From Labilithrix sp. (GTDB lineage: Bacteria > Myxococcota_A > Polyangia > Polyangiales > Polyangiaceae), in assembly GCA_019637225.1 (NCBI GenBank), contig JAHBWC010000007.1, positions 62,001 through 126,000 on the forward strand: a DNA stretch of 64,000 nucleotides, given 5' to 3'. Under the pieces are notes generated by a model. It was not told the origin of the DNA. It saw only the letters and a program-made list of their open reading frames with translations, and ran no database searches. Every line of letters begins with the position of its first letter. Position 1 is the stretch's first letter. The translations under genes and the position numbers were made by a program. Of the stretch, positions 196 to 15,851 are shown one piece after another.

Positions 196-2136
196 GTGTA
201 CCCGCAGGTCTTCGGCAAGTACGTCCTCGAGCGCGAGCTGTCGCGGGGTGGGATGGCGCGCGTCGTCCTCGCGACCCTGAGGGGCGCAGGCGGCTTCGAG
301 AAGAAGCTCGTCGTGAAGCAGATCCGCGACGAGCTCGCCTTCGACCAGCAGTTCGTCCGGCGCTTCGTCGAAGAGGCGAAGACGACGGTAGCCCTCAGCC
401 ATCCGAACATCGTCCCGGTCTACGAGCTCGGCGTCGAGCAGGGGACCTACTTCCTCGCGATGGAGCTCGTCGAGGGCGTGAGCGTCGCCGAGCTCCTGCG
501 CGAGCGGGACGAGGACGGATCGCGCCGCGTCCTGACGCCGGAGGAGGGCGCTTACCTGGGCGTCGAGGTGTGCCGCGCGCTCGACTACGCGCACCGCCGC
601 ATGAAGGTCGTCCACCGCGACATCACGCCGAGGAACGTGATGATCGACGAGGAAGGGCAGATCAAGCTGATCGATTTCGGCATCGCCGCGCCCGCGCTCG
701 TGTCGGGTCACGAGATCCTCGGCTCGCCCGGGCACATGGCGCCCGAGCAGGTCGACGGCGGCGAGCTCGGGCCGCCGACCGACATCTTCGCGGTCGCCGT
801 GCTCCTGATGGAGGCGTGGACGGGGGCGGCGCCGTTCCGTCGCGCCACTCCGGAGGAGTGCGCGGCCGCGGTGCGCGAGCCGCACCCGCGGCCGAGCGAC
901 TTCGATCCGCGCCTGCTCCCGCTCGACGCCGAGATCGCCCGCGCGATGGACGTGAATCCGCGCGTGCGGCAACAGGAGGCGAGCGATCTCGCGCGGGCGC
1001 TGCGCTCGTTCGTCCAGGGCCTCGACGTCGCCGACATCGCGCGGGCGCTCGGCGACCGTGTCCGTGACCTCCGCGAAGAGGCGTCGTCGCCGTCGCCGCC
1101 GTCGCGCACCACGGCGCCCCGCGCGTCGGCGGCGAGCCACGGTGACCTCGGCACGAAGACGTTCGCCGCGCGCGAGGAGGCGCTCCGCTGGTCGAACCCG
1201 CCGCCGGGCCTCGACGCGGATGACGGTCCGCCGGCCGCGAGCACGCGGCGCCTCGAGGAGAGCACGCCGAAGCTGCCGGCCTCGGCGCCGCCGCCTCGCG
1301 GTCGCCGCGACGATCCCGCGATGAGCATCCCGACGCCGCTCATGGTGGACGTCGAAGAGCTCGAGCGGATCCACGGCGACATCGCGGCGGCGCGGGCGGA
1401 CAAGCGCTCGGAGCGGCCGGGAGCGGCGCGGCCCGGGCCGAAGCAGACGGACATCCCGACGGTGCGCCGCGCCAAGTTCTCGCGCCCCGAGAGCACGGCT
1501 CCCGAGAAGCTCGAGACGATCGCGACGCGGCCGTTCGAGACGCCGGTGCGTGCGTTCGAGACGGCCGAGGCGCCTGCCGCGAGCGCGAAGCCGCGCCGGC
1601 GCCTGCTCGCGCTCGGCGTCGCGGGCCTCGCCGCGATCGGCGCCGTCGCCGTGTGGCAGACGCGCGGCGGCGTCACGATCGATTCGGGGCGTCCCGTCGC
1701 GACGACGGCGGCGGCGCCTCCGACGGCGCTCACCGCCGCGCCCTCCGTCACGCCGCCGCCCGAGCCGGTGTCGTCGGCGCCCGAGCCGGTCCGCTCCGCG
1801 CCGAGCGCGCCCGCGACGCCGGTGTCCGCGTCGGCACCGGCGACCTCTGCGCCGGCGATCTCCGCGCCGACCACGTTGGGGTCCGCGCCGCTCGGCGCGG
1901 GCAAGGCCCTCGTGACGTTCCTCGGGGAACCCGGCACGCGCGTGTCGATCGACGGCGCGTCGCGCGGTCCGTGCCCCGTCCGCGTCACGCTCGCGGACGG
2001 GCCGCACGACGTGCGCTTCACGTTCGACCCCACGGGCGAGAGCCGCGGCGAGCGGTTCACCGTGAAGGCGGGCGACCGCGTGACGGTGCGCGCCGAGTTC
2101 ACCGGCGCGACGCCGACGGTCAAGATCCAGCGCTGA
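196..2136 (+). CDS. Membrane Ser/Thr protein kinase with C-terminal PEGA domain
   Basis: This is a 646-residue Hanks-type kinase predicted to phosphorylate Ser/Thr on unknown partners. The glycine loop is near residues 16-23, the ATP-anchoring Lys is K41, the catalytic loop HRDITPRN starts at H140, and DFG is at 160-162, followed by an APE-type MAPEQ. An Ala/Pro/Ser-rich linker leads to one membrane segment (about 470-487), another Pro/Ala/Ser linker, and a PEGA-like beta domain (about 570-640), which in this family lies outside the membrane. All core catalytic residues are present, so it should be active. The start is GTG with no obvious Shine-Dalgarno sequence. It stands alone, reading toward the tandem-HTH regulator. 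Function as kinase is secure; its signal and targets are unknown. Confidence 0.93.
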   Translation: MYPQVFGKYVLERELSRGGMARVVLATLRGAGGFEKKLVVKQIRDELAFDQQFVRRFVEEAKTTVALSHPNIVPVYELGVEQGTYFLAMELVEGVSVAELLRERDEDGSRRVLTPEEGAYLGVEVCRALDYAHRRMKVVHRDITPRNVMIDEEGQIKLIDFGIAAPALVSGHEILGSPGHMAPEQVDGGELGPPTDIFAVAVLLMEAWTGAAPFRRATPEECAAAVREPHPRPSDFDPRLLPLDAEIARAMDVNPRVRQQEASDLARALRSFVQGLDVADIARALGDRVRDLREEASSPSPPSRTTAPRASAASHGDLGTKTFAAREEALRWSNPPPGLDADDGPPAASTRRLEESTPKLPASAPPPRGRRDDPAMSIPTPLMVDVEELERIHGDIAAARADKRSERPGAARPGPKQTDIPTVRRAKFSRPESTAPEKLETIATRPFETPVRAFETAEAPAASAKPRRRLLALGVAGLAAIGAVAVWQTRGGVTIDSGRPVATTAAAPPTALTAAPSVTPPPEPVSSAPEPVRSAPSAPATPVSASAPATSAPAISAPTTLGSAPLGAGKALVTFLGEPGTRVSIDGASRGPCPVRVTLADGPHDVRFTFDPTGESRGERFTVKAGDRVTVRAEFTGATPTVKIQR

Positions 2137-2291: not shown

Positions 2292-3488
2292 GTGACCAGC
2301 ATCGTTCGCCGGCGAGGCGACTGGGCAGGGTTGGTCGAGGCCGCGCAGCAGGACGCGCGCGACGACGAGACATGGGCGCGATCGGTCGTCGGAGCCGCGA
2401 AGGGAGTGCTCGCGACCGCGTTCGAGCCGTCTCTGGCGGTCGTCGAGCACTCGCCGGCCTGCGATTCGGTGAAGTACACGGGCCTCGTGATGGCGCACCC
2501 CGAGATGACGGCGGCCGCGCGAGACGGCGGCCTGTCGGTGCTCGGCGTCTCCGGCTTTCGTGCGTTCTTCTACCCCGAGACCGTCGCCACGACCCACCTC
2601 GAGGTCGAGCGAACGGTCGGGCCCCAAGCGGCCGCCGGAGCGGTGGACCTTCGCCGTCGGGCCAACATCCACGACGCCGTCGGCCTCTTTGCGTTCCCGG
2701 AGCCGGGCGTCGTCGTCAGTCTCTTCGTGGGTCACGATCGAGAGATTCGCCTGAGCCGCGCGGAGCGCACTCTCCTCGCTCGCGTCGCATTGCACATCGA
2801 GACGAGCTATCGCCTTCGCCGGCGACCGGAGGTCGTGAAGGCGGTCCTCGACTTCGAGGGGCGCGTGCTCGAGGGGGGCGACGACGCTCCCCCATCGCAC
2901 GTCCTCCGCGAGCACGCCGCAACCATCGCGCGAGCGCGCGAGCATCGCGCGAGCCCGGACGCGCTCGCCCTCTGGCCCGCCCTCGTCGACGGGCGCCTCA
3001 GCCTCGTCGAGCGAGGCGCGGGGCAGAAGCGACGCTATCTCCTCGTCGAGAACGCGCCTCCGCTGCAGCCCTTTCGCGCGCTCTCGCCAGACGAGGTGGA
3101 GGTGATCTCGCAAGCGGCACGCGGTCACTCGACGAAGCTCATCGCGTACGCGCTCGGCGTGTCGTCGTCCGCCGTGTCGACACGCCTCGCGACCGCGGCG
3201 TCCAAGGTCGGCGCGTCGTCGCGCATGGATCTCGTTCGGCTCGCCGCGATGCTCACGCGTGACCCGCGCGCGCGCTTCGCCGAGGTCGCGCTCACCGACG
3301 CCGAGAGGGACGTCCTCGAGCTGCTCCGGCAAGGCCTCTCGAACGAGGAGATCGCGACGATACGATCGCGTTCGGTGCGTACGATCGCAAACCAGGTCGC
3401 GTCGCTGCTCCGGAAGACCAAGAGCGGCTCGCGACGCGAGCTCGTCGTGGCCCCGCGGCCAGCTCCCGCGCATCTTCTCGCAGAGTGA
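2292..3488 (+). CDS. Regulator with two tandem C-terminal LuxR-type HTH domains
   Basis: This 398-residue protein has an unrecognised N-terminal half, possibly a sensor domain, followed by two LuxR/GerE-type DNA-binding domains. HTH1 (about residues 264-320) begins LSPDEVEVISQAARGHS; HTH2 (about 333-388) begins LTDAERDVLELLRQGLSNEEI. The GTG at 2292 was chosen because GGAGGGGGGA lies directly before it. An in-frame ATG at 2232 is the alternative and would add 20 residues. No receiver domain is seen, so it is not a standard response regulator. The tandem arrangement is unusual because most LuxR proteins carry one HTH. It probably regulates transcription; its targets are unknown. Confidence 0.8.
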   Translation: MTSIVRRRGDWAGLVEAAQQDARDDETWARSVVGAAKGVLATAFEPSLAVVEHSPACDSVKYTGLVMAHPEMTAAARDGGLSVLGVSGFRAFFYPETVATTHLEVERTVGPQAAAGAVDLRRRANIHDAVGLFAFPEPGVVVSLFVGHDREIRLSRAERTLLARVALHIETSYRLRRRPEVVKAVLDFEGRVLEGGDDAPPSHVLREHAATIARAREHRASPDALALWPALVDGRLSLVERGAGQKRRYLLVENAPPLQPFRALSPDEVEVISQAARGHSTKLIAYALGVSSSAVSTRLATAASKVGASSRMDLVRLAAMLTRDPRARFAEVALTDAERDVLELLRQGLSNEEIATIRSRSVRTIANQVASLLRKTKSGSRRELVVAPRPAPAHLLAE

Positions 3489-3533: not shown

Positions 3534-4934
3534 CTACGGAGCCCCGTCGACCGAGGCGACGGTCGGGCCTCGCGCGAGCGGCGCGTATCCGCCGGCGTTC
3601 GTGCGGTCGAAGCGGACGACGAAGAGCGCGGCGAGCGTGAGCGATTGCAAGACGAGCGTCGCGTTGACGGCCCACGCCACGCCGAGCCCGCCCTGTCCCA
3701 TCCTCACCGCGAAGAGGTACGCGAGCGGGAGCCGCGCGAGCGCGATCACGAGGCCGACGACGACCGGAGGCACGGTGTCGCCCGTCGCGCCGAACGCGGC
3801 CTCGAGGACGGAGCGCGCGCCTACGAAGACGAGGCCGACGGACGCGATCGCGAGGACCTGCGCTCCGACGTGCACGAACTCGGGCTCGCTGCAGATCCAG
3901 GCGACGACCGGTCCGGGAGCGAGCCTGAGGATCGCCGCTCCGCCGATCGCGAGCATCACGACGACTCCGAGCGCGAGCCGGACGACGCGGAGCGCGTCGC
4001 GTCGTCGGTTTCGCCCGAGGTTGTAGCCTACGAGGGTCGCCGCCGCCGGTGCGATCCCGTCCGTCGGGATGTTGAGGACCTGCGTGAGCCGCTCCTCGGC
4101 GCCCTGCGCCGCGACGTACTCCACGCCGTAGCGCGAGAGGAACGCGAAGAGGCCGAACCACACGGCGCCGTGGACGACGGCGTCGGCGGTCAGCGGCGCG
4201 CCGATGCGGAAGACGGGCCAGAGCTCGCGCAGGTTCGCGACGCGCTCCCTCCACGGCATCGCGGCGCCCGGGTGCGCGGCTCCGCGCAAGGCGCGGAGGC
4301 CGATCGCGTAGCCGACCGCGTCTCCGGCGACCTGCGCGACGCCGGCGCCCCACACGCCCGTGCCGAGCCCCCGCAGCAAGAGCGGCGTCATGACGAAGCT
4401 GACGGTGAACGAGGCGGTGCTCGCGATCATGCTCGCGCGCGGCGCGCCGAGGCCGACGAGCGCGCCGCTCATCGCCATCATCCCGAAGGCGAACGGCAGG
4501 CCGAGGAGGAGCACGTGGAGGTAGCGCGCCGCCTCGACGCGCGGCGGGCCCGCGAGGTGGAGCGCGTCGAGCGCGAAGGGCGAGGCCGCGAGCGCAGCGC
4601 CGGCGATCGTCGCGCCGAGGACGAGCGCGAGGGCCGTCGCCTTCTGGGCGATGCGCGAGGCGTCGCGCCGGCGACCCTCGCCGAGCATGCGGCCGATGAC
4701 CGCCGAGGTCCCCGCGCTCGTGAGGCCGGCGAACATGTGCGAGAGCGACATGAACGCGCCGAGCGCCGTCACGATCGAGAGCGCCTCGACGCCGAGCTTT
4801 CCGATCCAGTACGCCGTCGAGAGCTCGACGGCGTAGCGGACGGCGGCGCTCAGTGCGAGCGGCAGCGCGATGAGGAGCAAGCCGCTGCCCGGCGTCCTCC
4901 GCGCGAACGCGTCGTCCGCGAGCGCGTCGCTCAT
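3534..4934 (-). CDS. MATE-family efflux transporter
   Basis: This 466-residue polytopic membrane protein has about 12 hydrophobic segments in two homologous halves, as in MATE (NorM/DinF-type) cation-coupled exporters. Recognisable stretches include GKLGVEALSIVTALGAFMS near the N-terminus and VGYNLGRNRRRDALRVVRLA in the middle. The ATG at 4934 overlaps the stop of the upstream ATP-grasp gene in an ATGA arrangement, so translation is probably coupled. It is the last gene of the kamA / ATP-grasp / ATP-grasp / MATE unit, which suggests it exports the product of those enzymes. The family is clear; the substrate is inferred from context only. Confidence 0.93.
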   Translation of the reverse strand: MSDALADDAFARRTPGSGLLLIALPLALSAAVRYAVELSTAYWIGKLGVEALSIVTALGAFMSLSHMFAGLTSAGTSAVIGRMLGEGRRRDASRIAQKATALALVLGATIAGAALAASPFALDALHLAGPPRVEAARYLHVLLLGLPFAFGMMAMSGALVGLGAPRASMIASTASFTVSFVMTPLLLRGLGTGVWGAGVAQVAGDAVGYAIGLRALRGAAHPGAAMPWRERVANLRELWPVFRIGAPLTADAVVHGAVWFGLFAFLSRYGVEYVAAQGAEERLTQVLNIPTDGIAPAAATLVGYNLGRNRRRDALRVVRLALGVVVMLAIGGAAILRLAPGPVVAWICSEPEFVHVGAQVLAIASVGLVFVGARSVLEAAFGATGDTVPPVVVGLVIALARLPLAYLFAVRMGQGGLGVAWAVNATLVLQSLTLAALFVVRFDRTNAGGYAPLARGPTVASVDGAP

Positions 4935-5986
4935 CGCGCCGCGGCGCGCGCCGGCGCCCCCGCGCGAGCGAGCGCGCCGGTCACCAGGGTCGCGACCACC
5001 TGCCCGTGATCGAGCCCGGAGCGCTTCGCCGCGAGCATGAAGCCGCCGTCGCGGGAGAGATCGCAGTTCGGGTTCGCGTCGATGACGAACGCGCGCCCCG
5101 AGCGGTCGACGCGGAAGTCGATGCGCCCGTAGTCGCGCATCCCGAGCGCTGCGGCGGCGCGGCGCGCGAGGACCGAGAGGCGCCGATGGAGCTCCGGCGA
5201 GAGCGCGGCCTCGGTCGAGCGCGTCCCGACGTAGTCGACCGAGGTCTCGTCCCACTTCGAGGCGTACGTCAGGATGCGTGGCCGGCCCGAGAAGGCGTCG
5301 GCGTCGTAGAGGATCTCCCCCGGCGAGAGGACCCGCGGGTTCGTACCGCCGAGGAGCGCGAGCGCGACCTCGCGACCGTCGATGTACTGCTGGAGCACCG
5401 CGGGGCGACCGTCGGCGGCGAGGCCCGCGACCTTGCGCGAGAGCGAGGCCGCGTCGTGGACCACGGAGTCGGCGTCGATGCCGACGGAGCCGTCCTCGCG
5501 CTCCGGCTTCACGATGAGCGGGAAGGGCGACGCGGGGAGGGGCACGCCGGCGCGGTACGTGGCGGGGACGGGGACGCCGGCGCGCGCGAGCGCGCTCGAT
5601 GTGTCGAACTTGTCGAGGCAAAGCCGGAGGCACGACGAGGAGCTGCCGGTGAACGGGACGCCGAGGCGCTCGAGCAGGTGCGGCACCTCCGGCTCGTCGG
5701 CGCTCCGCCCGCCGACCGACTCGCAAGCGTTGAAGACGACGTCGGGCTGGTGCTCGAAGAGCGCCGTCTCGACGTCCTGGAGGCACGTGATCGACGCGTG
5801 GACCACATCCCAGCGCCCTCGAGCCTTCAGCGAGTCGAGGAGGTCGCGCGTGACCGCGCCGAGATCGGTGTCGGGCCGTGGAGCCGGGTCGAGCGGCGTG
5901 AGGAGCAGCACGCGCGCCTCGCGCGGCCCGCGGCGCGGCGCGCGGTGGCGCGGTCGCGGCGGACGTAGGGAGGACGAGCAACGCAT
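4931..5986 (-). CDS. D-Ala-D-Ala ligase-like ATP-grasp enzyme (divergent copy)
   Basis: This ATP-grasp ligase is up to 351 residues long and would join a carboxylate to an amine via an acyl-phosphate. The Ddl-like features are FNACESVGG, LGVPFTGSS, LDKFDTS, IVKPEREDGSVGI for ATP binding, and the Mg-binding segment YGRIDFRVD then DANPNCDLS. The canonical EvNPxPGLT..S segment of true Ddl enzymes is altered to DANPNCDLSRDGGF, so the substrate probably differs from D-alanine. ATG 5986 lies 10 nt after the preceding gene's stop. GTG 5911, preceded by GAGG, would remove a non-conserved Arg-rich leader and may be the true start. It sits in the kamA unit next to a second, more canonical copy. Confidence 0.85.
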   Translation of the reverse strand: MRCSSSLRPPRPRHRAPRRGPREARVLLLTPLDPAPRPDTDLGAVTRDLLDSLKARGRWDVVHASITCLQDVETALFEHQPDVVFNACESVGGRSADEPEVPHLLERLGVPFTGSSSSCLRLCLDKFDTSSALARAGVPVPATYRAGVPLPASPFPLIVKPEREDGSVGIDADSVVHDAASLSRKVAGLAADGRPAVLQQYIDGREVALALLGGTNPRVLSPGEILYDADAFSGRPRILTYASKWDETSVDYVGTRSTEAALSPELHRRLSVLARRAAAALGMRDYGRIDFRVDRSGRAFVIDANPNCDLSRDGGFMLAAKRSGLDHGQVVATLVTGALARAGAPARAAAR

Positions 5987-5996
5987 GGCGTGACCG

Positions 5997-7007
5997 TCAG
6001 AGCGAGAGGTGGACGGCCTCGCGCGGGGGAAAAGTCGCCCGCCGCGCGCGCCGGAGCGCGGGCTCGAGGATCCGGCCGATGAGGGTCGCGTAGTCGACTC
6101 CGGCGGCCTCCGAGATGAGGCAGAGGTCCGACCATCCCGGCGTGAGACCGGGGAGCGGATTGCACTCGATGAACGCAGGGCGGCCTGCGGCGTCGAGGCG
6201 GACGTCGATCCGAGCCACGTCGCGGCAGCCGAGGGCCGCGAACGAGCGGGCGGCGAGGTCTCGGATCTCGCGGTCGAGCTCGCTCGGGATCTGCGCGGGC
6301 GCCTCGTAGGTCACCTCGTCCGTCGGCTCGAGCTTGTGGTCGAAGCTGTAGACCGGGAACGGATCGCCGCTGCGGAGGATGATCTCCATCGGCGGCAGGA
6401 CGGTCTCGCCGAGGACGGCGACCGTGAACTCGCGACCTGGGAGGTACTCCTCCACCAGCGCGCCCTGGGCGTAGCGCGCCGCGACACGCCGCGCCAGGGT
6501 TCGCGCCTCGTCCTCGGACGTCGCTACGCTCGCCGGCAGGACGCCCTTGCTGCTCCCCTCGGCGACGGGCTTGACGATCGCGGGGAACGCGAGGCTGGCG
6601 GGCAGCGGCTCGTCGCCAGTGACCATCACGACGCCGCTCGGCGTGCGCACGCCGGCGTCGCGGACGATCGCCTTCGCGACCGCCTTGTCGAGCGTCGTGA
6701 CGAGGCTCGCCGGATCCGAGCCCGTGTAAGGAATGCCGAGGAGCTCGAGCACGGCAGGCACGTGGGCCTCGCGGCTCCGCCCTCGCGCGCCCTCGGACAC
6801 GTTGAACACGACGTCGACCCGAGCCCCGAGCAGCGCCGCCGGGAACGTGGCGTCGGCTTCGAGCAGGATGACGTCGTGACCGAACGAGGCGATTGCCTCC
6901 GCGATCGCCTCGATGGTCGACGGGGCGTCGTACTCCGCCTCGTCGTCCTGAGCGCCGCCGGCCCTGGGTTTCAGTCGCTTCAGGTTGAACGCGATACCTA
7001 TGCGCAT
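5997..7007 (-). CDS. D-Ala-D-Ala ligase family ATP-grasp enzyme
   Basis: This 336-residue protein has the whole Ddl-type ATP-grasp plan: N-terminal MRIGIAFNL strand, FNVSEG, LGIPYTGSDP, LDKAVAK, the ATP loop KPVAEGSSKGV, EEYLPGREFTVAVLG, and C-terminal RIDVRLD followed by ECNPLPGLTPGWSD. The Mg-binding and ATP-binding residues all appear to be present. The ATG at 7007 overlaps the 3' end of the kamA-type gene by 10 bp, and the gene is followed 10 nt later by the second ATP-grasp gene. A housekeeping Ddl would be expected in the cell-wall cluster, so a role in joining a beta-amino acid made by the adjacent radical SAM enzyme is more likely. The substrate is inferred. Confidence 0.9.
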   Translation of the reverse strand: MRIGIAFNLKRLKPRAGGAQDDEAEYDAPSTIEAIAEAIASFGHDVILLEADATFPAALLGARVDVVFNVSEGARGRSREAHVPAVLELLGIPYTGSDPASLVTTLDKAVAKAIVRDAGVRTPSGVVMVTGDEPLPASLAFPAIVKPVAEGSSKGVLPASVATSEDEARTLARRVAARYAQGALVEEYLPGREFTVAVLGETVLPPMEIILRSGDPFPVYSFDHKLEPTDEVTYEAPAQIPSELDREIRDLAARSFAALGCRDVARIDVRLDAAGRPAFIECNPLPGLTPGWSDLCLISEAAGVDYATLIGRILEPALRRARRATFPPREAVHLSL

Positions 7008-8362
7008 GACTCGCTTCGCCTCTCTCCGCCGGCCGCGGCGAGCGCGGCGCGGATCATCTCGGCCCGCTCGCGCCCGTCTGCCCAGCGTCGCCGCGCGACG
7101 CTCGACAGACCGTGGAGCGGGTCGAAGTGGGTGAACAGGCGGCCGGGCTTGACGCTCGGCGCCTCGTAGACGCTGATGCCGGTGTCTCGGTCGTAGTGCT
7201 CGTAGGAGTGGGCGTCGCGCTTGCCGCCGCCGCCGGCGGTGTCGACGACGAACGTCGGGGTGTTGAAGCCGGCGGTCGAGCCGCGCACGTGCTTCTCGAG
7301 CCGGATCGCGACGTCCACGGACGTGCGGAGGTCCTCCACGCCGCGCACGAGATCGTGCACGTACACGTAGTACGGCTGCACGTTGACGTGACCGAGGCGC
7401 TTCACCAGCGTCGTCATGACCTCGGGCGTGTCGTTCACGCCTCGCTGGAGGACGCTCTGGTTGCGCACGATGACGCCGCGGCCGAAGAGCACGCCGATCG
7501 CCTCCTCGGTGAGCGCGGTGATCTCGGACGGGTGGTTGAAGTGCGTGTGGACGGCGACCTGCTTGCCGAGCCTCCGCCCCTTGTCGACGACGCGGCAGAG
7601 CGCGTCGGTCCACGCGGCGTCCGTCAGGAGCTTCTGCGGCATGACCGCCAGGCCCTTCGTCGCGAAGCGCAGCCGACGGACGCTCGGCGTGGCGAGGAGC
7701 GCGTCGCCGATCTCCTCGAGCTGCTGCGCACGGAGCTGGTAGGCGTCGCCGCCGGAGACGACCACGTCCTCGATCTCCGGCCGCGAGGCGACGTAGGCGA
7801 AGGCGCGCGCCCAGCGCTCGTTCGACACCTTGAGGCTGACCTTCTCGATCTGCTCGGTGTCGACGCCGACGGCGTAGCTGCGCGTGCAGAAGCGGCAGTA
7901 GACCGGGCACGTGTCGAGCGCGAGGAACAGCGCCTTGTCGGAGTAGCGGTGGGTGAGGCCGGGGACCGGCGCGTCGGCTTGCTCGTGGAGAGCGTCGAGC
8001 GCGAGCTCCGGATGGTCGGGGAGGAGGCGCGAGGCGAGCGGGATGAACTGGATCCGGAGCGGGTCCGCGACGGGGTTCGCCCAGTCGATCAGGCTCATGA
8101 CGTACGGCGTGACGCGCACCGACATCGGCGACCGGGCGAGCCCCTCCTCGACGTCGGCGACGAGCTCGGCGGAGGCGAGGCCCCGCAGCGCGGCGACGAG
8201 CTTGGTCGCGTTGGTGATCGTGTTCTTCGCTTGCCAGGCGTGGTCGCGGAAGTCGCGCTCCGTGACGTCGGCGTAGGCGGGGATCGTCCGCCAGAACTCT
8301 CCGCCGAGCAGGTCTCGGTGGAGCGAGGCGCCCGCCCTCGCGAGCGGTAAGGAGGCGAGCAT
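6998..8362 (-). CDS. kamA: Lysine 2,3-aminomutase family radical SAM enzyme (KamA-type)
   Basis: This 454-residue protein is predicted to interconvert L-lysine and L-beta-lysine using S-adenosylmethionine, a [4Fe-4S] cluster and PLP. The radical SAM motif CPVYCRFC has cluster cysteines C152, C156 and C159. The PLP-binding Lys in GGGGK is K381. In characterised lysine 2,3-aminomutase two aspartates bind the lysine side-chain amine; the equivalents D311 (RGVND) and D337 (YVYVHD) are both present, whereas glutamate 2,3-aminomutases replace them. This supports lysine as substrate. The length fits KamA rather than the shorter EpmB. It is the first gene of the four-gene unit, divergent from the GNAT gene across a repeat-bearing intergenic region. 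Family assignment is firm; the substrate is well supported but untested. Confidence 0.93.
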   Translation of the reverse strand: MLASLPLARAGASLHRDLLGGEFWRTIPAYADVTERDFRDHAWQAKNTITNATKLVAALRGLASAELVADVEEGLARSPMSVRVTPYVMSLIDWANPVADPLRIQFIPLASRLLPDHPELALDALHEQADAPVPGLTHRYSDKALFLALDTCPVYCRFCTRSYAVGVDTEQIEKVSLKVSNERWARAFAYVASRPEIEDVVVSGGDAYQLRAQQLEEIGDALLATPSVRRLRFATKGLAVMPQKLLTDAAWTDALCRVVDKGRRLGKQVAVHTHFNHPSEITALTEEAIGVLFGRGVIVRNQSVLQRGVNDTPEVMTTLVKRLGHVNVQPYYVYVHDLVRGVEDLRTSVDVAIRLEKHVRGSTAGFNTPTFVVDTAGGGGKRDAHSYEHYDRDTGISVYEAPSVKPGRLFTHFDPLHGLSSVARRRWADGRERAEMIRAALAAAGGERRSESCA

Positions 8363-8476: not shown

Positions 8477-8563
8477 GAGAATTCATGTCCTCGAGGCCGC
8501 ACATGAAGCGTCGTTAATCCGCTCTCCGGGCGCGCGCGGTCGTTCATTAAAGAGAATTCATGT
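8477..8563. repeat. Two direct repeats GAGAATTCATGT in the kamA/GNAT divergent region
   Basis: The 12-mer GAGAATTCATGT occurs at 8477-8488 and 8552-8563, exactly 75 bp apart, and an inverted partial copy (ACATGAAG) lies at 8501-8508. The first copy overlaps an inverted repeat, ATGAA-N6-TTCAT, at 8471-8486. These are among the most AT-rich bases in the neighbourhood and lie between divergent genes, so an operator for a regulator of kamA and/or the GNAT gene is plausible. No regulator is assigned. Confidence 0.5.
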
Positions 8564-8601
8564 GGGTCGGCGTTCGGGGTTTGCCATCCTGTCCTTCGCC
8601 G

Positions 8602-9183
8602 ATGCCACCATCGTTCGAGCTCACCTGGGAGACCGAGGATCGCTCGTTCGCGGCGATCGAGCCCGACGCCGCGCTCGTCGCACGGAGCGCCGAGCAGCTC
8701 CGTGACTGGTACAACGCGCACGACAACGCCTCGATGATGGAGGGCTCGGGCGTCATGTCGTGCGACGACGTCATCGAGTTCTGGCGCGAGCTCCGCGCCT
8801 CCGGCGGCCGCGGCTTCCTCGGGTTCGTCGACGGCCGGCTCGTCGGCGACGCGGACCTCCGGAGCATCCACGACGGCGCGGCCGAGTTCGCCCTCATGAT
8901 CGGACCGGCCGCGGAGAAGGGGCGCGGGTTCGGCCGCGCGCTCGCGTCGATCATCCACGTGTTCGCCTTTCGCGAGCTCGCGCTCTCGCGCGTCTTCGTC
9001 CCGCCGCGTCGCGACAATCATCGCGTCCACGCGCTCAACGCGTTTCTCGGCTACGAGCGCGACGAGAGCGCGGCCGCGCGCGCGTTCGCGGACGGACCGG
9101 ACTCGGAGACGTACTCGCTCGCGGCGGAGACCTTCCGCGCGAAGCACCGCGCGGCCTGGCGAGAGGTCGAGGTGCGCCCGTGA
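8602..9183 (+). CDS. GNAT-family N-acetyltransferase
   Basis: This 193-residue protein has a RimJ/GNAT-like fold. It contains FLGFVDGRLVGDADLRSI (beta strands), an acetyl-CoA loop-like stretch GPAAEKGRGFGRALAS, and the C-terminal NHRVHALNAFLGYERDE typical of this family. It would transfer an acetyl group from acetyl-CoA to an amine. ATG 8602 was chosen over an upstream in-frame ATG at 8560, whose extra 14 residues do not look like family sequence. It is divergent from kamA and overlaps the downstream response regulator by 4 bp (GTGA). A beta-lysine acetyltransferase role is conceivable because kamA/GNAT pairs make acetyl-beta-lysine elsewhere, but it does not closely resemble AblB. Substrate unknown. 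Confidence 0.85.
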   Translation: MPPSFELTWETEDRSFAAIEPDAALVARSAEQLRDWYNAHDNASMMEGSGVMSCDDVIEFWRELRASGGRGFLGFVDGRLVGDADLRSIHDGAAEFALMIGPAAEKGRGFGRALASIIHVFAFRELALSRVFVPPRRDNHRVHALNAFLGYERDESAAARAFADGPDSETYSLAAETFRAKHRAAWREVEVRP

Positions 9184-9854
9184 GGCTGCTCGTCGTCGAG
9201 GATGACAGGAAGCTCTCGCGCTTCCTCGCGAAGGCCCTCTCCGAGGAAGGCTACACGGTCGACGCGTGCAAGAGCGGTCGCGACGCCGTCGCGCAGGCGG
9301 CACGCAACACGTACGCCCTCGTCGTGCTCGACTGGATGCTGCCGGAGCTCGACGGCATCAACGTCTGTCGCGAGCTCCGGCGCGCCGGGAGCACGGTCCC
9401 GATCGTCATGGTGTCGGCGCGGGTCGACGTCGCCGAGCGCGTCACCGCGCTCGACGCCGGCGCGGACGACTTCCTCACCAAGCCGTTTCACCTCGACGAG
9501 CTGCTCGCGCGCGTCCGCGCGGCCATCCGCCGTGGGCGCGTCGAGGAGCGCGCGCTTCGCGTCGGTTCGCTCGCGCTCGACGTCGTCGATCGCATCGTCC
9601 TCGTCGACGGCAAGCGCGTCGACCTCCGGCCGCGCGAGTACGCGCTGCTCCTCTTGCTCGCCCGGCACGCGGGGCGGACGCTGTCGCGCAGCGAGATCCT
9701 CGCGCAGGTGTGGCGCCTGACGCACGACCCCGGCAGCAACCTCGTCGAGGTGAACGTCAGGAACCTGCGCGAGAAGCTCGGCGTCACCGCTCCGACGCTC
9801 GAGACGGTGCGCGGCGCGGGGTACCGGCTCGCGGCCAGCGAGCTCACGAAGTGA
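9180..9854 (+). CDS. OmpR/PhoB-family response regulator
   Basis: This 224-residue response regulator starts with a receiver domain: acidic pair at ED, phosphoacceptor D51 in VVLDWMLPELDG, and the conserved Lys K101 in LTKPF. The C-terminal winged-helix domain (about residues 125-220) contains LRPREYALLLLLARHAG and VRGAGYRL. The GTG start overlaps the GNAT stop by 4 bp, and its own stop overlaps the start of the sensor kinase by 4 bp, so GNAT, regulator and kinase form one translationally coupled unit. It is predicted to be phosphorylated by the adjacent kinase. The target promoters are unknown; the kamA/GNAT divergent region is a candidate. Confidence 0.95.
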   Translation: MRLLVVEDDRKLSRFLAKALSEEGYTVDACKSGRDAVAQAARNTYALVVLDWMLPELDGINVCRELRRAGSTVPIVMVSARVDVAERVTALDAGADDFLTKPFHLDELLARVRAAIRRGRVEERALRVGSLALDVVDRIVLVDGKRVDLRPREYALLLLLARHAGRTLSRSEILAQVWRLTHDPGSNLVEVNVRNLREKLGVTAPTLETVRGAGYRLAASELTK

Positions 9855-11245
9855 AGCTGCGTCATCGCTTCGCGCTGACGTTCGCGCTCGCGTCGCTCGG
9901 GACGCTCGTGCTCGCGCGCGTCGTCACGATCGTCTCGTTCACGCGGCTGCAAGAGTACGAGCTCGATCAGGGCCTGCGCGCGCGAGCCCGCGAAGAGAGC
10001 AACGAGGTCGCGTTGCTCGGTCGCAAGGCGCTCGAGCGGGAGCACGTCTCCGACGACGACGCCGATCCGCTCGAGCAGCTCGTGACGTACGGCGCTCTCT
10101 ACCGGGCCGACGGCACGGTCGTCGCCGACACGCGGTCGTTCCCCCACGCGCCCGCGCTGCACGAGCTCGGCGCGAGCCCGACGATCTCGAGCGGCGCGTG
10201 CTTCGACTTTCGTTTCCGCGACAAGATGCTCCGCGGCGTCATCGTGGAGCTCTCTGGTCAGGAGGGCGGCGAGCGGCAGTACCTCCTCCTGGCGGCGTCG
10301 CGACGCGAGATCGACGACGACGCTCGGCAGCTGCTCGCGCTCGGGTGGTGGATCGTCGCGGCCTGCTTGCCGCTCTCGCTCGCGCTCGGCTGGCTGCTCG
10401 GGCGCCGAATGACGAGAGGGGTCGAGACGCTCGCCACGGCCGCCGGTCGGGTGACCGCGGGCGAGCTCGACATGGACCTCTCGTCGAGCACGCCGGGCGA
10501 CGACGAGGTGGCCGCGCTCGGCCGGGCGCTGCGCGAGATGGTCGCGTGGCTCAAGGGCCTCATCGAGACCGAGCGGCGCTTCGCCTCGCACGCGGCGCAC
10601 GAGCTCCGCTCTCCGCTCGCGGCGCTGCGCGGCGAGCTCGAGCTCGCGCTGCGCCGGAAGCGGACCGGCGCGGAGTACGAGTCGATGCTGCGGGACGCCC
10701 TCGAGGATACGAACCGGCTCGTCGATCTCGCCGAGGACCTGCTCGTCGTCGCGCGCATCGAGCGCGGCGTCATCGACGACCGCGCCGAGGAGATCGACGC
10801 TCGCACGCTCGTCGAGGACGCCGTCGCGGCGTCGGCGGCGCGGGCGCCGGACGACGTCGTGATCGACGCCGCCGACGAGCGGATCGTCGTGCGCGGCGCC
10901 CGCGTGGCGCTCGTGCGCATGCTGCGGAACCTCGTGGACAACGCCGTCGTGCACGGCGCCGCGCCGGCGCACGGCGGGCTCCGCGTGCGCGTGCGACGGA
11001 CCGACGAGGCGGGAGCCGTCCTGGCGCGCATCGAGGTCGAGGACGACGGACCTGGCGTCGCGCCCGAGGATCGCGAGCACCTGTTCGAGCCGTTCCATCG
11101 CGGCGCGGCGGCGCGTCAGGAGCCCGGTGCGGGCTTGGGCCTCGGGATCGCGCGCGAGATCGCTCGGCGCCACGGGGGCGACGTCGTGATGGCCTCGTCC
11201 GCGGACCCGACGCGCTTCGTGGTCACGCTGCGCGCCGAGGCCTGA
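9851..11245 (+). CDS. Membrane sensor histidine kinase
   Basis: This 464-residue kinase has an N-terminal membrane segment (about 9-29), a periplasmic region (about 30-160), a second segment (about 163-184), a HAMP linker, the dimerisation/phosphoacceptor helix with H250 in SHAAHELRSPLAALRGE, and an HATPase_c domain with NLVDNAVVHG, DDGPGV and GAGLGLGIA. The GTG start overlaps the stop of the response regulator by 4 bp, making an obvious cognate pair. The sensed signal cannot be told from the sequence. All catalytic boxes (H, N, G1, G2) are visible. Confidence 0.95.
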   Translation: MKLRHRFALTFALASLGTLVLARVVTIVSFTRLQEYELDQGLRARAREESNEVALLGRKALEREHVSDDDADPLEQLVTYGALYRADGTVVADTRSFPHAPALHELGASPTISSGACFDFRFRDKMLRGVIVELSGQEGGERQYLLLAASRREIDDDARQLLALGWWIVAACLPLSLALGWLLGRRMTRGVETLATAAGRVTAGELDMDLSSSTPGDDEVAALGRALREMVAWLKGLIETERRFASHAAHELRSPLAALRGELELALRRKRTGAEYESMLRDALEDTNRLVDLAEDLLVVARIERGVIDDRAEEIDARTLVEDAVAASAARAPDDVVIDAADERIVVRGARVALVRMLRNLVDNAVVHGAAPAHGGLRVRVRRTDEAGAVLARIEVEDDGPGVAPEDREHLFEPFHRGAAARQEPGAGLGLGIAREIARRHGGDVVMASSADPTRFVVTLRAEA

Positions 11246-11379
11246 GAGCTCGACCCATCGCTCTCGATCGGTCGAGGTACGACCCCGAGAATGCACGGCG
11301 GGCGGACGGTCCACGAGCTCCGCCCTGCCACCGGAACCAGGGCGGGCGCACGGCTTGCGTGATCGGGAGCGAGCGCGAC

Positions 11380-12567
11380 ATGGCGGGACACCGGACAGCG
11401 GTCGGGGCACGAGGCGCGCGCGCCTCGAAGGGACGCGGGGCTTCGCGCACCCTCGGACTCCTTCGACGAGCGCGGTCAAAAGGCTTCGTCGCCCTCCTCG
11501 GTCTCGTCGGGATCGCCTCGCTCGCCGCGTATCGTCGCGCGTCGACGAGCGGGGCGGAATGCTGTGCGCCGCCGCCTTCGCGCGTCAGCCTTTCCGGCGC
11601 GAAGCTCGACGGAGAGGGAGAGGCCGCGGCGTCGGGCGAGGCGGCGACACCCGACGGCATGGTCTTCGTTCCGGGCGGCTCGTTCTGGATGGGCAGCGAC
11701 GAGCCGCGGATGCGGGACGCACGGCCGTGGCACGAGGTCACCGTCGACGGCTTCTGGATGGACCGAACCGAGGTGACGAACGAGGAGTTTCTCCGCTTCG
11801 TCGAGGCGACCGGTCACGTCACGACCGCCGAGCGCCCGCTCGATGCGGCACGGTATCCGGGCGCGTCCGAAGAGGCGCGACAGCCTGCCGGCATCGTGTT
11901 CGAGAAGCCGACGCACCCGGTGAGCCTCGACGCGCCGCTCTCCTGGTGGCGGCTCGTTCCCGGCGCGTCGTTCCGCCACCCCGAGGGGCCGCGGAGCTCG
12001 ATCCTCGGACGTGAGCGGTATCCGGTCGTCCAGATCAGCTGGGACGACGCGGTCGCGTACGCGAAGTGGGCGAACAAGCGCCTCCCCACGGAGGCCGAGT
12101 GGGAGCGTGCCGCGCGCGGGGGGCTCGTGAAGAAGCGATTCGCGTGGGGAGACGAGCTCCGGCCCGATCACCGGTGGCTCGCCAACGTGTGGCAAGGCGA
12201 CTTCCCCACCGAAGACACCGCCGAGGACGGCTTCGCAGGCATCGCTCCCGTCGCCTCGTTCCCGCCGAACGGCTTCGGCCTGTTCGACATGGCGGGGAAC
12301 GTCTGGGAGTGGACCGCGGACTGGTATCGAGCGGACTCCTACGGACGGAGCGCCGCGAAGAATCCTCGCGGGCCGGACGTGCCCTTCGACCCCGCCGAGC
12401 CGACGGTGGCGAAGCGCGTCACGCGCGGAGGGTCGTTTCTCTGCGCCGAGAACGTCTGCCAGCGCTACCAGCCCGGCGGTCGAGGCAAGGCCGCGCCGGA
12501 CAGCGGCACGTCGCACACGGGCTTTCGCTGCGTGCGCTCGGCGTCCTCGAGCGTGGCCCCGCGTTGA
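11380..12567 (+). CDS. Formylglycine-generating enzyme (sulfatase-modifying factor)
   Basis: This 395-residue protein has a short basic N-terminus, a membrane anchor (about 36-51), then the FGE-sulfatase domain: PGGSFWMGSDEPR, RLPTEAEWERAARGG, GLFDMAGNVWEWTADWY, and the C-terminal block with GGSFLCAENVC and HTGFRC. The Cys pair C355/C360 matches the redox/copper-binding pair of true formylglycine-generating enzymes, which convert a sulfatase active-site Cys to formylglycine. Many relatives with this domain lack these cysteines, so this copy should be catalytically competent. No sulfatase gene is visible here. ATG 11380 has a weak upstream GGGAG; GTG 11359 is an alternative. It lies 134 bp after the sensor kinase and may be a separate transcript. 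Confidence 0.9.
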   Translation: MAGHRTAVGARGARASKGRGASRTLGLLRRARSKGFVALLGLVGIASLAAYRRASTSGAECCAPPPSRVSLSGAKLDGEGEAAASGEAATPDGMVFVPGGSFWMGSDEPRMRDARPWHEVTVDGFWMDRTEVTNEEFLRFVEATGHVTTAERPLDAARYPGASEEARQPAGIVFEKPTHPVSLDAPLSWWRLVPGASFRHPEGPRSSILGRERYPVVQISWDDAVAYAKWANKRLPTEAEWERAARGGLVKKRFAWGDELRPDHRWLANVWQGDFPTEDTAEDGFAGIAPVASFPPNGFGLFDMAGNVWEWTADWYRADSYGRSAAKNPRGPDVPFDPAEPTVAKRVTRGGSFLCAENVCQRYQPGGRGKAAPDSGTSHTGFRCVRSASSSVAPR

Positions 12568-12582
12568 GCCGGGCGCGCGGCG

Positions 12583-13086
12583 TCAGTCGCCGAACTCGTA
12601 GCCGGGCTCGGGCGCCGCGCTCGCCGCGCGGACGAGGTCCGGGTGCGTCGTCAGCGCACGGAGGCAGCGGTTGTAGTGGAGGATCGGCGCGGGATCATCC
12701 GGCGAGCCGAGCGTGTCGGCGCGCTCGAACCTGCCGATCGCCTCCTCGAAGGCGTGGATCGCGTTGTCCGCGCGGCCGGCGACGAGCTGGGCCTTGGCGT
12801 AGCGCTCCCAGGCGACGCCTGTATAGTACATTCGTTCGTACTCCGACCGTAGCCGGGCGAACGCGGCGCACGCGTCGTCGAACAGCGTCATCCACGCCGT
12901 CGGGAACTGGTCGGTGAGCGCGAGCCCCAACGTCCGACGTGCGTCCTCGTTGTCGGGAGCCACGTCGAGGACGTCGCGGCAGATGCTCTCGGCGTCCTCG
13001 GGTTGATTGAGATCGCGATAGTGCTTCGCGAGATCGACAGCGGCCGACAGATCGCGCGCGCGAAGTTGCTTCAGTTCCCGCCCCAT
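12583..13086 (-). CDS. TPR-repeat protein
   Basis: This 167-residue soluble protein consists of helical tetratricopeptide-like repeats, for example DLAKHYRDLNQPEDAESIC, VAPDNEDARRTLGLAL and AKAQLVAGRADNAIHAFEEAI. Such repeats mediate protein-protein contacts; no catalytic domain is seen. The ATG at 13086 has no Shine-Dalgarno sequence but a TATGAT -10-like hexamer ends 11 nt upstream. It converges on the FGE gene with 15 bp between them and is divergent from the DUF4403 gene. Its partner is unknown. Confidence 0.8.
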   Translation of the reverse strand: MGRELKQLRARDLSAAVDLAKHYRDLNQPEDAESICRDVLDVAPDNEDARRTLGLALTDQFPTAWMTLFDDACAAFARLRSEYERMYYTGVAWERYAKAQLVAGRADNAIHAFEEAIGRFERADTLGSPDDPAPILHYNRCLRALTTHPDLVRAASAAPEPGYEFGD

Positions 13087-13097
13087 ATCGTTGGCGT

Positions 13098-13103
13098 ATC
13101 ATA
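13098..13103 (-). promoter_or_regulatory. Candidate -10 element of the TPR gene
   Basis: On the minus strand TATGAT (5 of 6 matches to the sigma70 consensus) ends 11 nt before the ATG at 13086, which has no Shine-Dalgarno sequence. A plus-strand TATCAT overlaps it and could serve the divergent DUF4403 gene. No convincing -35 was found on either strand. Confidence 0.4.
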
Positions 13104-13157
13104 CCGGGCGCCCTGTAGAGCCCCCACGTGCGGTATCCCTCCCTTGCCTCGAGCTCG

Positions 13158-14567
13158 ATGACACATCACCCCAAGCGCTCGCCGCGGCGCGACATGCTCG
13201 CAGCCATACTGATCTCGCTCGGTTGCGCGTGTGGCGGCCGTGACGCTGCGTCGCCGAGCCCCCCTCCGCCGCTCGCCGAGACCTGCCGCGTCACGCTCGG
13301 TCCCCGGCCGGAGGCCCTCGCCCCGGCGGCCCCCGCGCCCGCCCCGCCCGCGCCGACGCGGTCGTCGCGGCTCGTCGCGCACGTCGAGCTCAGGCTCGCG
13401 ACGCTCGCGAAGGAGCTCGAAGGCAAGGTCGGGACGCGCCTCGCGGAGGAGCGAAACAAGAGCATCGGCATCGCGGGGCGCCTCGACTACACGGTCGACC
13501 GCGGGCCGTTCAGCGTGGCGGTCGAAGGCGACGCGCTCGTCGTTCGCACGGACATCAAGGCGCGCGCCCAGGCTTGTCGCGGGAAGTCTTGTTACGCCTC
13601 GTGCGAGCCGCAGGGCCGAGCGACGGCGACGGTGCCCCTCCGTCTCACGCCGGAGTATCGCTTCGCGCCCTCGCGCGTCACGTTCGCGTTCACGCGCGGC
13701 TGCGAGGTGCGCGCGCTCGGCGGCATGGTGAAGATCGACGTCACGCCGACGCTCCAGTCCGCCCTCGCGCCGTCGCTCCGGCGTGTCGAGCAGGAGATCG
13801 ACGGCAAGCTGCCTTCGCTCCGCTCGCAGGCGGAGCGCTTGTGGACGGAGCTCGGCAAGTCGCGGAGTCTGCCGCTCGGCGGCTGCGTCGTCACGAACCC
13901 GCGCGGCATCGTCCAGGGGCCGACCGCCGGACGTCCGGAGGCGCTCCGCGTCCGCTTCGGGCTCGTCGCCTACCCGGAGATCCGCGCGCGCTGCGGCGAG
14001 GTTCCCACTTCGCGTCCGCTGCCGCCGTTGACGCAGGATCCGGCGCTGCCCGTCGAGGACGACCTCGTCCTCGCGCTCGTCTCGCCGCTCGCGACGGTGG
14101 CGTCGGGCCTCGAGGGCGGCGATCCGTTCGACGCCGGCGGCGCGCGCGCTCGCATCGCGCGGGCCATCGCGGTCCCCGCGGGCGCGCTCGCGCAGCTCGA
14201 TCTCGGGCTCCGCGGCGAGGCGTGTGGAGACCTCGCGGTGCGCTCCCCGCTCGGCTGGACCGAGGACGGACGCTCTCTCCGGCTCGCTTCGCCGGCGTTC
14301 ACGACCGGCGAGCGTGAGCGCGCCGCGCGTGCCTCGCTCGCGCCGGAGACGCTCGTGAGGTCGCTCTCGCAGGCGCGCTTCGCGCCGCCCGTCCCGCCGG
14401 AGACGCTGAAGGAGCTCGTCCCGTCGATCGCGTCGAGCATGTCGGACGCGTCGCTCGAGGTGAGCGCGAAGGTCGCCGGCGTCGAGCCGCTCGACGTCGT
14501 CCTGCGCGGTGAGGATCTCGCCGCGTCCGTGCTCGTGCGTGGGAGCGTCGAGCTGAAGCAGCGCTGA
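13158..14567 (+). CDS. DUF4403-like lipoprotein
   Basis: This 469-residue exported protein has a basic n-region, a hydrophobic stretch (LAAILISLG), and a lipobox-like SLGC/ACGG that should make it a lipoprotein. The mature part matches the DUF4403 plan: a repeated BPI/TULIP-like beta-rich fold with strands such as PLRLTPEYRFAPSRVTFAF and RVRFGLVAYPEIRARCGE followed by a PLPPLT segment. DUF4403 proteins have no established function; a lipid-binding fold has been suggested for the group. ATG 13158 gives a normal lipoprotein signal. GTG 13128 and ATG 13194 are alternatives. It ends 6 bp from the convergent PQQ-repeat gene. Confidence 0.72.
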   Translation: MTHHPKRSPRRDMLAAILISLGCACGGRDAASPSPPPPLAETCRVTLGPRPEALAPAAPAPAPPAPTRSSRLVAHVELRLATLAKELEGKVGTRLAEERNKSIGIAGRLDYTVDRGPFSVAVEGDALVVRTDIKARAQACRGKSCYASCEPQGRATATVPLRLTPEYRFAPSRVTFAFTRGCEVRALGGMVKIDVTPTLQSALAPSLRRVEQEIDGKLPSLRSQAERLWTELGKSRSLPLGGCVVTNPRGIVQGPTAGRPEALRVRFGLVAYPEIRARCGEVPTSRPLPPLTQDPALPVEDDLVLALVSPLATVASGLEGGDPFDAGGARARIARAIAVPAGALAQLDLGLRGEACGDLAVRSPLGWTEDGRSLRLASPAFTTGERERAARASLAPETLVRSLSQARFAPPVPPETLKELVPSIASSMSDASLEVSAKVAGVEPLDVVLRGEDLAASVLVRGSVELKQR

Positions 14568-14573
14568 GGCGCG

Positions 14574-15851
14574 TCAGTCGTGGAGCGCGAGCAACGTGTT
14601 GTTGTTCGCGGCGATGAAGATGGTCCCGTCGCGGCCGATCGCGAAGCCGAACGGGTTCGTCGCGATGTCGGCCTCCCAGCGCTTGGCGCCGTCCGGCGCG
14701 TACGAGAACATCTTGTTGTCGCCGCCGACGTAGATGTCGCCGTCGGGATCGACGACCACGGAGGTCCGCAGCGATACGCCCGTGTCGATCTCCCACTTCA
14801 GGCTGCCGTTGGTCGGGTCGAGCGCGGCGAGCCAGCTGCTCGTCGCCGTGTAGATCGTGCCGTCCTTGCCGAGCGCGGGGAGCATCTGCCACGCGACGCT
14901 CCCGCGCGTCGACACGCTCCACTTCGGCCCGCCGTCGGCGTGGACCGCGTGCAGGCGGTTGCTGAGCGTCCCGGCGTAGATCGTCCCGTCGTCCGCGATG
15001 ACGGCCGCGCATCGGACCTCGCCGTTGGTGTCGTACGTCCAGCTCACGCCGCCGTCGCGCTTGAGCGCGTGGAGCGTGTTCCCGGCGCCGACGTAGAGCT
15101 CGCCCGTCGGGCCGATCGCCACCGCCGCCCAGACGTCGGAGCCGAGGTTTCGCTCCCAGCGCCTGCCCCCGTCGGGCGAGAGCGCGTAGAGCCGGTCGCT
15201 GAACGATCCGCAGTAGACGGCGCCGTCTTCGTCGACCGTGGTCGACGTGTCGATCTCTCCGCCGGTCGGGAAGCGCCAGTAGGTCCCGCTCTTGCGGTGC
15301 GCCACGACGTTGCGTTCGGCGCCGAAGTAGAGCGTCCCGTCGACGCCGATCGAAGGCACGTTCGTGACGTTGTTCGGGGTGCCGGTGCCGGAGTCGGCGT
15401 AGGGGCGCCGGCCGCCGTCCGGATCGAAGGCGAGGATCCCGCTGACGTCCGCCGGGACGTAAACGGTGTCGTCGGCGCCGATGACCGGTTGCGTCTCGCG
15501 CGTCGTGATGGTCGTCTTCCAGACGATCTCCGGCTTCGTCTTTGGTCCGCGATGGACGGTGCGCCCGGCGTGGCCGACGCAGCCGCCGATCATCGGCCAC
15601 GGGGCGCCGCGCTCGGAGCCCGGCCACGTGCAGGTCTCGGCGAACGGCGTCGCGTCCGCATCGATCGCGCCGTCCCGCGCGCCGCCTTCGCCTCCGGGGT
15701 CCGTGTCGGCTCCGCCTTCGCCGTCCGGCGCGGGGCTCTCCGTTCCGGTGACGTCCGCGCCGACGACGTCGAGCCCGCACGCGGCGAAGCCGAGCGCCAC
15801 GCCCGGGGCCACGAGGGTCCACGCGAGGGTCCTCTTGAGCGAGAGCGCCAC
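14574..15851 (-). CDS. PQQ-like beta-propeller lipoprotein
   Basis: This 425-residue protein begins with a signal ending in the lipobox GFAAC, then an Asp/Gly/Ala-rich linker (about 26-68), then seven or so PQQ/BamB-type blades of the form DGTIYAGTLSNRLHAVHADGG. Such propellers usually act as protein-interaction scaffolds at the cell surface, and no quinoprotein active site is evident. The start is GTG with no Shine-Dalgarno sequence; a TAGACT hexamer ends 9 nt upstream. A BamB role is unlikely because it has one domain type only and no outer-membrane assembly neighbours. Confidence 0.82.
   Translation of the reverse strand: MALSLKRTLAWTLVAPGVALGFAACGLDVVGADVTGTESPAPDGEGGADTDPGGEGGARDGAIDADATPFAETCTWPGSERGAPWPMIGGCVGHAGRTVHRGPKTKPEIVWKTTITTRETQPVIGADDTVYVPADVSGILAFDPDGGRRPYADSGTGTPNNVTNVPSIGVDGTLYFGAERNVVAHRKSGTYWRFPTGGEIDTSTTVDEDGAVYCGSFSDRLYALSPDGGRRWERNLGSDVWAAVAIGPTGELYVGAGNTLHALKRDGGVSWTYDTNGEVRCAAVIADDGTIYAGTLSNRLHAVHADGGPKWSVSTRGSVAWQMLPALGKDGTIYTATSSWLAALDPTNGSLKWEIDTGVSLRTSVVVDPDGDIYVGGDNKMFSYAPDGAKRWEADIATNPFGFAIGRDGTIFIAANNNTLLALHD

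Follow-up and report, generated by a model that had tools for sequence, protein, structure and literature searches.

The window analysed here is a stretch of 64,000 nucleotides from a Labilithrix genome (8.2 Mb in 182 contigs, with a completeness of 83%), and it covers positions 62001-126000 of its contig. Near its beginning lies a compact cluster encoding a KamA-type radical SAM aminomutase, two ATP-grasp ligases designated G1 and G2, a MATE family exporter and a GNAT acetyltransferase. The cluster probably makes and exports a small peptide-like metabolite containing beta-lysine, independently of nonribosomal peptide synthetases (NRPS). The genes of the locus and the adjacent regulators are the following:

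3534-4934, minus strand: MATE family exporter (TIGR00797), present in 8/8 clusters of the order
4931-5986, minus strand: G2, a Ddl-fold ATP-grasp ligase whose substrate side is altered (NPNCDLS) and whose start codon is uncertain
5997-7007, minus strand: G1, a Ddl-fold ATP-grasp ligase and candidate beta-lysine ligase, of the family that adjoins KamA in 32/80 sampled loci
6998-8362, minus strand: KamA, a radical SAM/pyridoxal phosphate (PLP) aminomutase of the lysine 2,3-aminomutase type and a paralogue dedicated to the cluster
8560-9183, plus strand: GNAT acetyltransferase, divergent from KamA and present in 8/8 clusters of the order
9192-9854, plus strand: OmpR-type response regulator (Pfam), likely the cluster regulator; homologue at 5/8 clusters
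9893-11245, plus strand: sensor histidine kinase (Pfam), the partner of the response regulator; homologue at 5/8 clusters

The coordinates bear out the preliminary description of this stretch, in which four minus-strand genes overlap or nearly touch and a GNAT gene diverges from them. The MATE and G2 genes overlap by 4 bp and those of G1 and KamA by 10 bp, the spacing between G2 and G1 is 10 bp, and 197 bp separate the divergent GNAT and KamA genes.

The window KamA passes the KamA family radical SAM model TIGR00238 (232.6 bits versus a cut-off of 199.2) and falls below the AblA equivalog TIGR03820 (252.7 versus 525.4 bits). It is under the cut-offs of all substrate-specific NCBIfam models, among which the lysine model scores best, and the C-terminal LAM_C domain (PF12544) is likewise below its cut-off, at 23.1 versus 26.7 bits over 24 residues only. 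A single solved relative was found, lysine 2,3-aminomutase (PDB 2a5h, E 8e-65). The protein contains the radical SAM cysteines 152, 156 and 159, as well as R161, D337, D374 and K381, and in the alignment with 2a5h D337 corresponds to Asp293 and D374 to Asp330. In the known enzyme these two residues bind the lysine side chain. It had been claimed that KamA keeps both aspartates, the PLP lysine and the radical SAM cysteines, and these, together with the arginine, make up seven residues that are identical in 47/47 KamA sequences compared, namely 16 of a myxobacterial clade (three cluster copies, the copy of locus L061 and twelve unlinked ones) and 31 adjoining G1 elsewhere. Only 3 of the 194 positions invariant across the twelve unlinked KamAs are altered in all three cluster KamAs. 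Judging from these sequence features, the window KamA may be expected to form L-beta-lysine from L-lysine.

A second KamA copy, 74% identical to the first, is located on contig C12 of the same genome, where no ligase was found beside it within the stretch read. A careful tree of 24 sequences places the cluster KamAs of the window and of genomes G315 and G316 in one clade (support 100/98) with long branches (0.18 and 0.28) and joins the C12 copy to the unlinked KamA of genome G313 (99/99), so that the cluster KamA is a dedicated paralogue. The cluster copy is the only KamA of the myxobacterial clade found in G315 and G316 (completeness 96 and 88%), and cluster and unlinked copies together were seen in the window genome only.

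G1 and G2 are ATP-grasp ligases of the Ddl fold that lie outside the branch of the housekeeping D-Ala-D-Ala ligases (Ddl). Neither passes the D-Ala-D-Ala ligase model TIGR01205 (148.8 for G1 and 76.7 for G2, cut-off 245.65), and G2 scores 21.2 bits on the PylC model (cut-off 248.3) and 29.7 on that of RimK-type ligases (cut-off 143.4). Their predicted structures, based on alignments of 49 G1 and 38 G2 rows taken from 83 and 32 stop-free rows plus cluster copies, are confident (mean predicted local distance difference test scores of 93.2 and 92.4), except that the first ~20 residues of G2 are poorly predicted, which makes its start uncertain. All 50 PDB matches listed for each ligase are Ddl or D-Ala-D-lactate ligases, with identities of up to 30% for G1 and 25% for G2.

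The DdlB ATP-grasp residues K97, K144, K215, R255, D257 and N272 are all retained in both window ligases. At the D-Ala-side positions H63, E68, Y216, S281 and L282 of DdlB, the window G1 has E, R, L, S and D, and G2 has E, D, W, G and G, so that S281 is retained only in G1; Glu15 was left out of the G1 comparison owing to an ambiguous alignment. These changes are family features: the H63 position is Glu in 85/85 G1 and 33/34 G2 sequences, E68 is replaced by Arg in 85/85 G1, Y216 by Trp in 34/34 G2, L282 by Asp in 68/85 G1 and G276 by Asp in 30/34 G2. The preliminary description had contrasted one canonical ligase with one altered in a DANPNCDLS segment. The altered segment does belong to G2, where the column of its cysteine holds C in 7/34 rows and P in 26/34, but G1 is not canonical, and the division into one canonical and one altered enzyme is ruled out by the D-Ala-side residues changed in both.

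A tree of 157 ATP-grasp sequences was obtained by a quick method, with a long-branch warning issued by the program; in it G2 (34), the partner group termed ligase A (33) and Ddl (5) are each set apart by a single branch (SH-aLRT 99, 100 and 99, respectively). A grouping of the ligases with housekeeping Ddl had been named beforehand as one of two results that would speak against the proposal; instead, the five Ddl sequences branch separately from G1 and G2 (SH-aLRT 99). A housekeeping Ddl identity is ruled out by this separate branching, the scores below cut-off and the changed D-Ala-side residues. The 85 G1-labelled rows do not form a single branch, since two changes are required and 18 rows fall on the G2/Ddl side; the window G1 belongs to the larger part. 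The window G1 and G2 each cluster with the copies of loci L083 and L054 (support 96-100), which is consistent with co-inheritance. Tandem or fused pairs of ligase A and G1 (open frames of ~670-990 aa) occur in L061 and L054 and are frequent across the class sample. G2-like ligases also occur away from KamA loci (L056 8239-9754, L057 8827-9813, L058 and L059), and the L056 copy adjoins a GNAT gene.

Within the order, matches to the window GNAT at E 1e-15 or better were obtained in 14/183 genomes, eight of which, including the window genome, match at an identity of at least 45%; twelve further stretches and L054 were read for their neighbourhoods. G1, G2, MATE and GNAT occur together in 8/8 of the genomes at this identity, in line with the membership of MATE and GNAT that had been proposed. 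G1, G2, MATE and KamA were not found beside the GNAT in the other six genomes (33-42% identity; two of the contigs are only 6 and 8 kb long). G313, which is of the same genus as the window, and L083, 'Myxococcales bacterium 68-20', represent one genome, with the same KamA place and identical cluster genes. The other result named beforehand as refuting, a lack of joint conservation of the genes in related genomes, was likewise not seen. KamA lies inside the cluster in only 3/8 genomes (window, G315 and G316); it is ruled out as a constant member within the order and is there an optional, though dedicated, addition to a G1-G2-GNAT-MATE core. A KamA of the myxobacterial clade is nevertheless present in 8/8 cluster-bearing genomes, inside or outside the cluster. 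Outside the order, five genomes of a 377-genome phylum sample match the window GNAT at E 1e-20 with 36-39% identity, a count of GNAT matches alone.

The clusters also differ in accessory genes. An oxygenase-like gene and a group-1 glycosyltransferase gene are present in 4/8 (G313, G314, G317 and G170), none of which contains KamA, and the G272 cluster has neither KamA nor this pair. The oxygenase-like protein matches 2-oxoglutarate (2OG)-Fe(II) models below cut-off (21.8 versus 27). No match to the oxygenase or the glycosyltransferase was found elsewhere in the window genome, in a search without a positive control. A methyltransferase-like gene occurs in 6/8 clusters, with a Pfam match for the L083 copy and none for that of L054. 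An exchange of KamA for the oxygenase/glycosyltransferase pair is only suggestive, because the three cluster KamAs are one clade, G316 is not resolved in the cluster tree and one of the clusters lacks both.

In a class-wide sample of 192 genomes, where G1 matches at E 1.6e-80 or better were regarded as close and fragments were counted, KamA of this clade occurs in 62/71 genomes with a close G1 and in 48/121 without one (Fisher p 3e-11). Genome kinship was ignored in this count and, with relatedness uncontrolled, the co-occurrence is weak evidence.

The association of G1 with KamA extends far beyond the order. When the genome collection was scanned with an alignment of five G1 rows, at least 580 stretches were obtained, 555 of them confirmed, and the best 80 were kept; counts over 80 therefore describe a sample of the loci most like the window G1 rather than all carriers. 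KamA is located within 4.5 kb of G1 in 32/80 loci, always on its strand, with gaps of 0-1650 bp, in agreement with the conserved cluster that had been proposed. According to the record titles, these 32 loci span 12 phyla: Bacillota, Chloroflexota, Planctomycetota, Lentisphaerota, Ignavibacteriota, Kryptoniota, Calditrichota, Nitrospirota, Elusimicrobiota, Pseudomonadota, Thermodesulfobacteriota and Bathyarchaeota. G2 and GNAT accompany KamA and G1 in 18 of them, G2 only in 7, and neither in 7. Five of these last seven are on loci longer than 20 kb and some are at contig ends; a diverged G2 could have escaped detection. In L060 and L118, G2 and GNAT are fused into a single protein. The rest of the 80 comprise 33 loci with ligase A (two also with G2 and GNAT), 14 with none of these genes, and L083. 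Of the 48 genomes in which no KamA lies near G1, 43 contain a KamA-family match at another place, in 17 of them at an identity of at least 47% to the window KamA; the weaker matches may be other KamA relatives. No convincing further gene common to the far loci emerged from a mechanical clustering affected by antisense noise. The L101 locus (Caproicibacter fermentans, 9974-14722) is of the two-gene type, and behind its G1 and KamA lie genes that by eye resemble an amino-acid ABC transporter.

The far KamAs are separated from the myxobacterial clade with a support of 100. Of four that were scanned, that of L106 scores above the cut-off of the lysine 2,3-aminomutase equivalog (549.9 versus 525.4 bits), and the other three reach 478-519 bits, two of them scored as cut stretches. 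Since two KamA lineages, one in the window, G315, G316 and L061 and the other in the 32 far loci, adjoin one ligase family, a shared pathway or substrate is indicated. KamA with G1 is the smallest arrangement (7/32), which makes G1 the best candidate for the beta-lysine-using enzyme and the first partner of KamA; G1 is thus likely a beta-lysine ligase.

The remaining members were assigned by family models. The window MATE exceeds the TIGR00797 cut-off (149.8 versus 147.4) and the window GNAT that of Pfam PF13523 (39.8 versus 27). No AblB-named model was found among the matches of the window GNAT or of three far GNATs at E 0.001, in a model library which we take to include an AblB-type acetyltransferase model.

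In the proposed pathway, KamA would convert L-lysine to L-beta-lysine, and G1 would activate a carboxylate with ATP as an acyl phosphate and join it to an amine, beta-lysine being most likely one of the two substrates. G2, with its reshaped substrate side, could form a second amide bond and add a further residue, GNAT may acetylate an amine as a cap or for self-protection, and MATE would export the product in the myxobacterial version. The scheme is built on the gene set, its conservation, family membership and retained catalytic residues; from these we infer the substrates, the product, the order of steps, the acetyl cap, the MATE cargo and the biological role.

Several observations weigh against a beta-lysine peptide as the exported product. 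KamA is absent from 5/8 clusters of the order, and the product may vary, because methyltransferase, oxygenase-like and glycosyltransferase genes without a counterpart in the window are present in other clusters. KamA of this clade occurs without G1 in 48/110 carriers of the 192-genome sample, which points to some other role as well. The far loci are mostly contigs of metagenome-assembled genomes, carry a different GNAT type and revealed no MATE.

The variation among clusters could mean that G1, G2, GNAT and MATE build and export a peptide scaffold which is tailored either by KamA or by the oxygenase/glycosyltransferase pair, so that beta-lysine is optional. This is possible but rather unlikely: KamA (three clusters) and the pair (four) never share a cluster, and one cluster has neither, but the independent events are few, given the single KamA clade and the unresolved position of G316, and all eight genomes have a KamA of the clade somewhere. 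The peptide might also hold a different beta-amino acid, if KamA acts on another substrate. The long branches of the cluster clade and the scores under every substrate-specific cut-off favour such a shift, which is still improbable in view of both lysine-pocket aspartates being retained throughout, the few invariant positions changed and the lysine model scoring best among the specific ones.

About equally improbable is an intracellular compatible solute, a relative of N-acetyl-beta-lysine lengthened by the ligases, with MATE serving something else. N-acetyl-beta-lysine is a known solute, synthesised by a lysine 2,3-aminomutase together with an acetyltransferase (PMC2412884), and GNAT accompanies KamA, G1 and G2 in the 18 far loci mentioned. 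For such a solute, however, two ligases would be superfluous; MATE occurs in all eight clusters of the order, and the GNATs scanned have no AblB-named match. That G1 and G2 are cell-wall enzymes, either an alternative Ddl or a cross-bridge ligase, with KamA as a bystander, is very unlikely; their fold and their closest solved structures among the matches listed are of the Ddl type, but both are placed outside the Ddl branch with altered D-Ala-side residues, two stronger Ddl candidates are encoded elsewhere in the window genome, and G1 adjoins KamAs of two clades.

An exported beta-lysine peptide is thus preferred for the window cluster. A broader proposal, advanced only tentatively, is that G1 represents a widespread unrecognised family of beta-lysine ligases, that the KamA-G1-G2-GNAT set directs the synthesis of a so far undescribed beta-lysine peptide in bacteria and some archaea, and that this myxobacterial order rebuilt the pathway with its own aminomutase into an exported, diversifying secondary metabolite. 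If so, beta-amino-acid peptides would be made without ribosome or NRPS by genes misannotated in many phyla as a cell-wall Ddl and a stray aminomutase, and a candidate role would be assigned to some of the numerous Ddl paralogues of Myxococcota. A test would need no more than two or three soluble enzymes, and G1 would become a tool for the synthesis of beta-lysine amides.

The response regulator and histidine kinase, whose homologues flank five of the eight clusters, probably control cluster expression. On the other side, a LuxR-family regulator (2436-3488, plus strand) with two GerE-type helix-turn-helix stretches ends ~45 bp from the end of the MATE gene, and is preceded by a Ser/Thr protein kinase (196-2136, plus strand) with a weak PEGA match. 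A protein with a formylglycine-generating-enzyme-like (FGE-sulfatase) domain is encoded at 11482-12567 (plus strand). A scan of 13 window proteins and one upstream protein, but not of the rest of the genome, revealed no NRPS domains or modules.

Dipeptides made by ligases, the lysine aminomutase and products containing beta-lysine are all individually known, and no description of a gene set of KamA, two ATP-grasp ligases and GNAT/MATE was found in the literature searched. A 2009 survey of the gene neighbourhoods of ATP-grasp amidoligases reportedly may already list related neighbourhoods or parts of them. Ddl-type dipeptide ligases of natural-product pathways are free-standing amide ligases of the Ddl fold that act without NRPS, and we know of none that pairs with an aminomutase. 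In pyrrolysine biosynthesis the product of the radical SAM lysine mutase PylB passes to the ATP-grasp ligase PylC, a similar hand-over, although the mutase chemistry is different and G2 is far below the PylC cut-off. The genes of the N-epsilon-acetyl-beta-lysine pathway are ablA and ablB. This pathway shares with the window the presence of an acetyltransferase next to a lysine 2,3-aminomutase (PMC2412884). The window cluster adds two ATP-grasp ligases and an exporter, and its GNAT, like the three far GNATs scanned, has no AblB-named match. In streptothricin, beta-lysine is added by NRPS-type enzymes, unlike the window, where none are among the proteins scanned. The resemblance lies in a secreted product with beta-lysine residues, the acetylation of beta-lysine being described as self-protection (PMC13316988). 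The nearest system found is the Pbo cluster of Pseudomonas syringae, in which lysine-2,3-aminomutase-like radical SAM, ATP-grasp and 2OG-Fe dioxygenase proteins are listed side by side (PMC8473136). It differs in having one ATP-grasp protein, for which an L-amino acid ligase is given as the match. Within the literature searched, it is the combination of an aminomutase, two ligases, a GNAT and an exporter that appears to be new.

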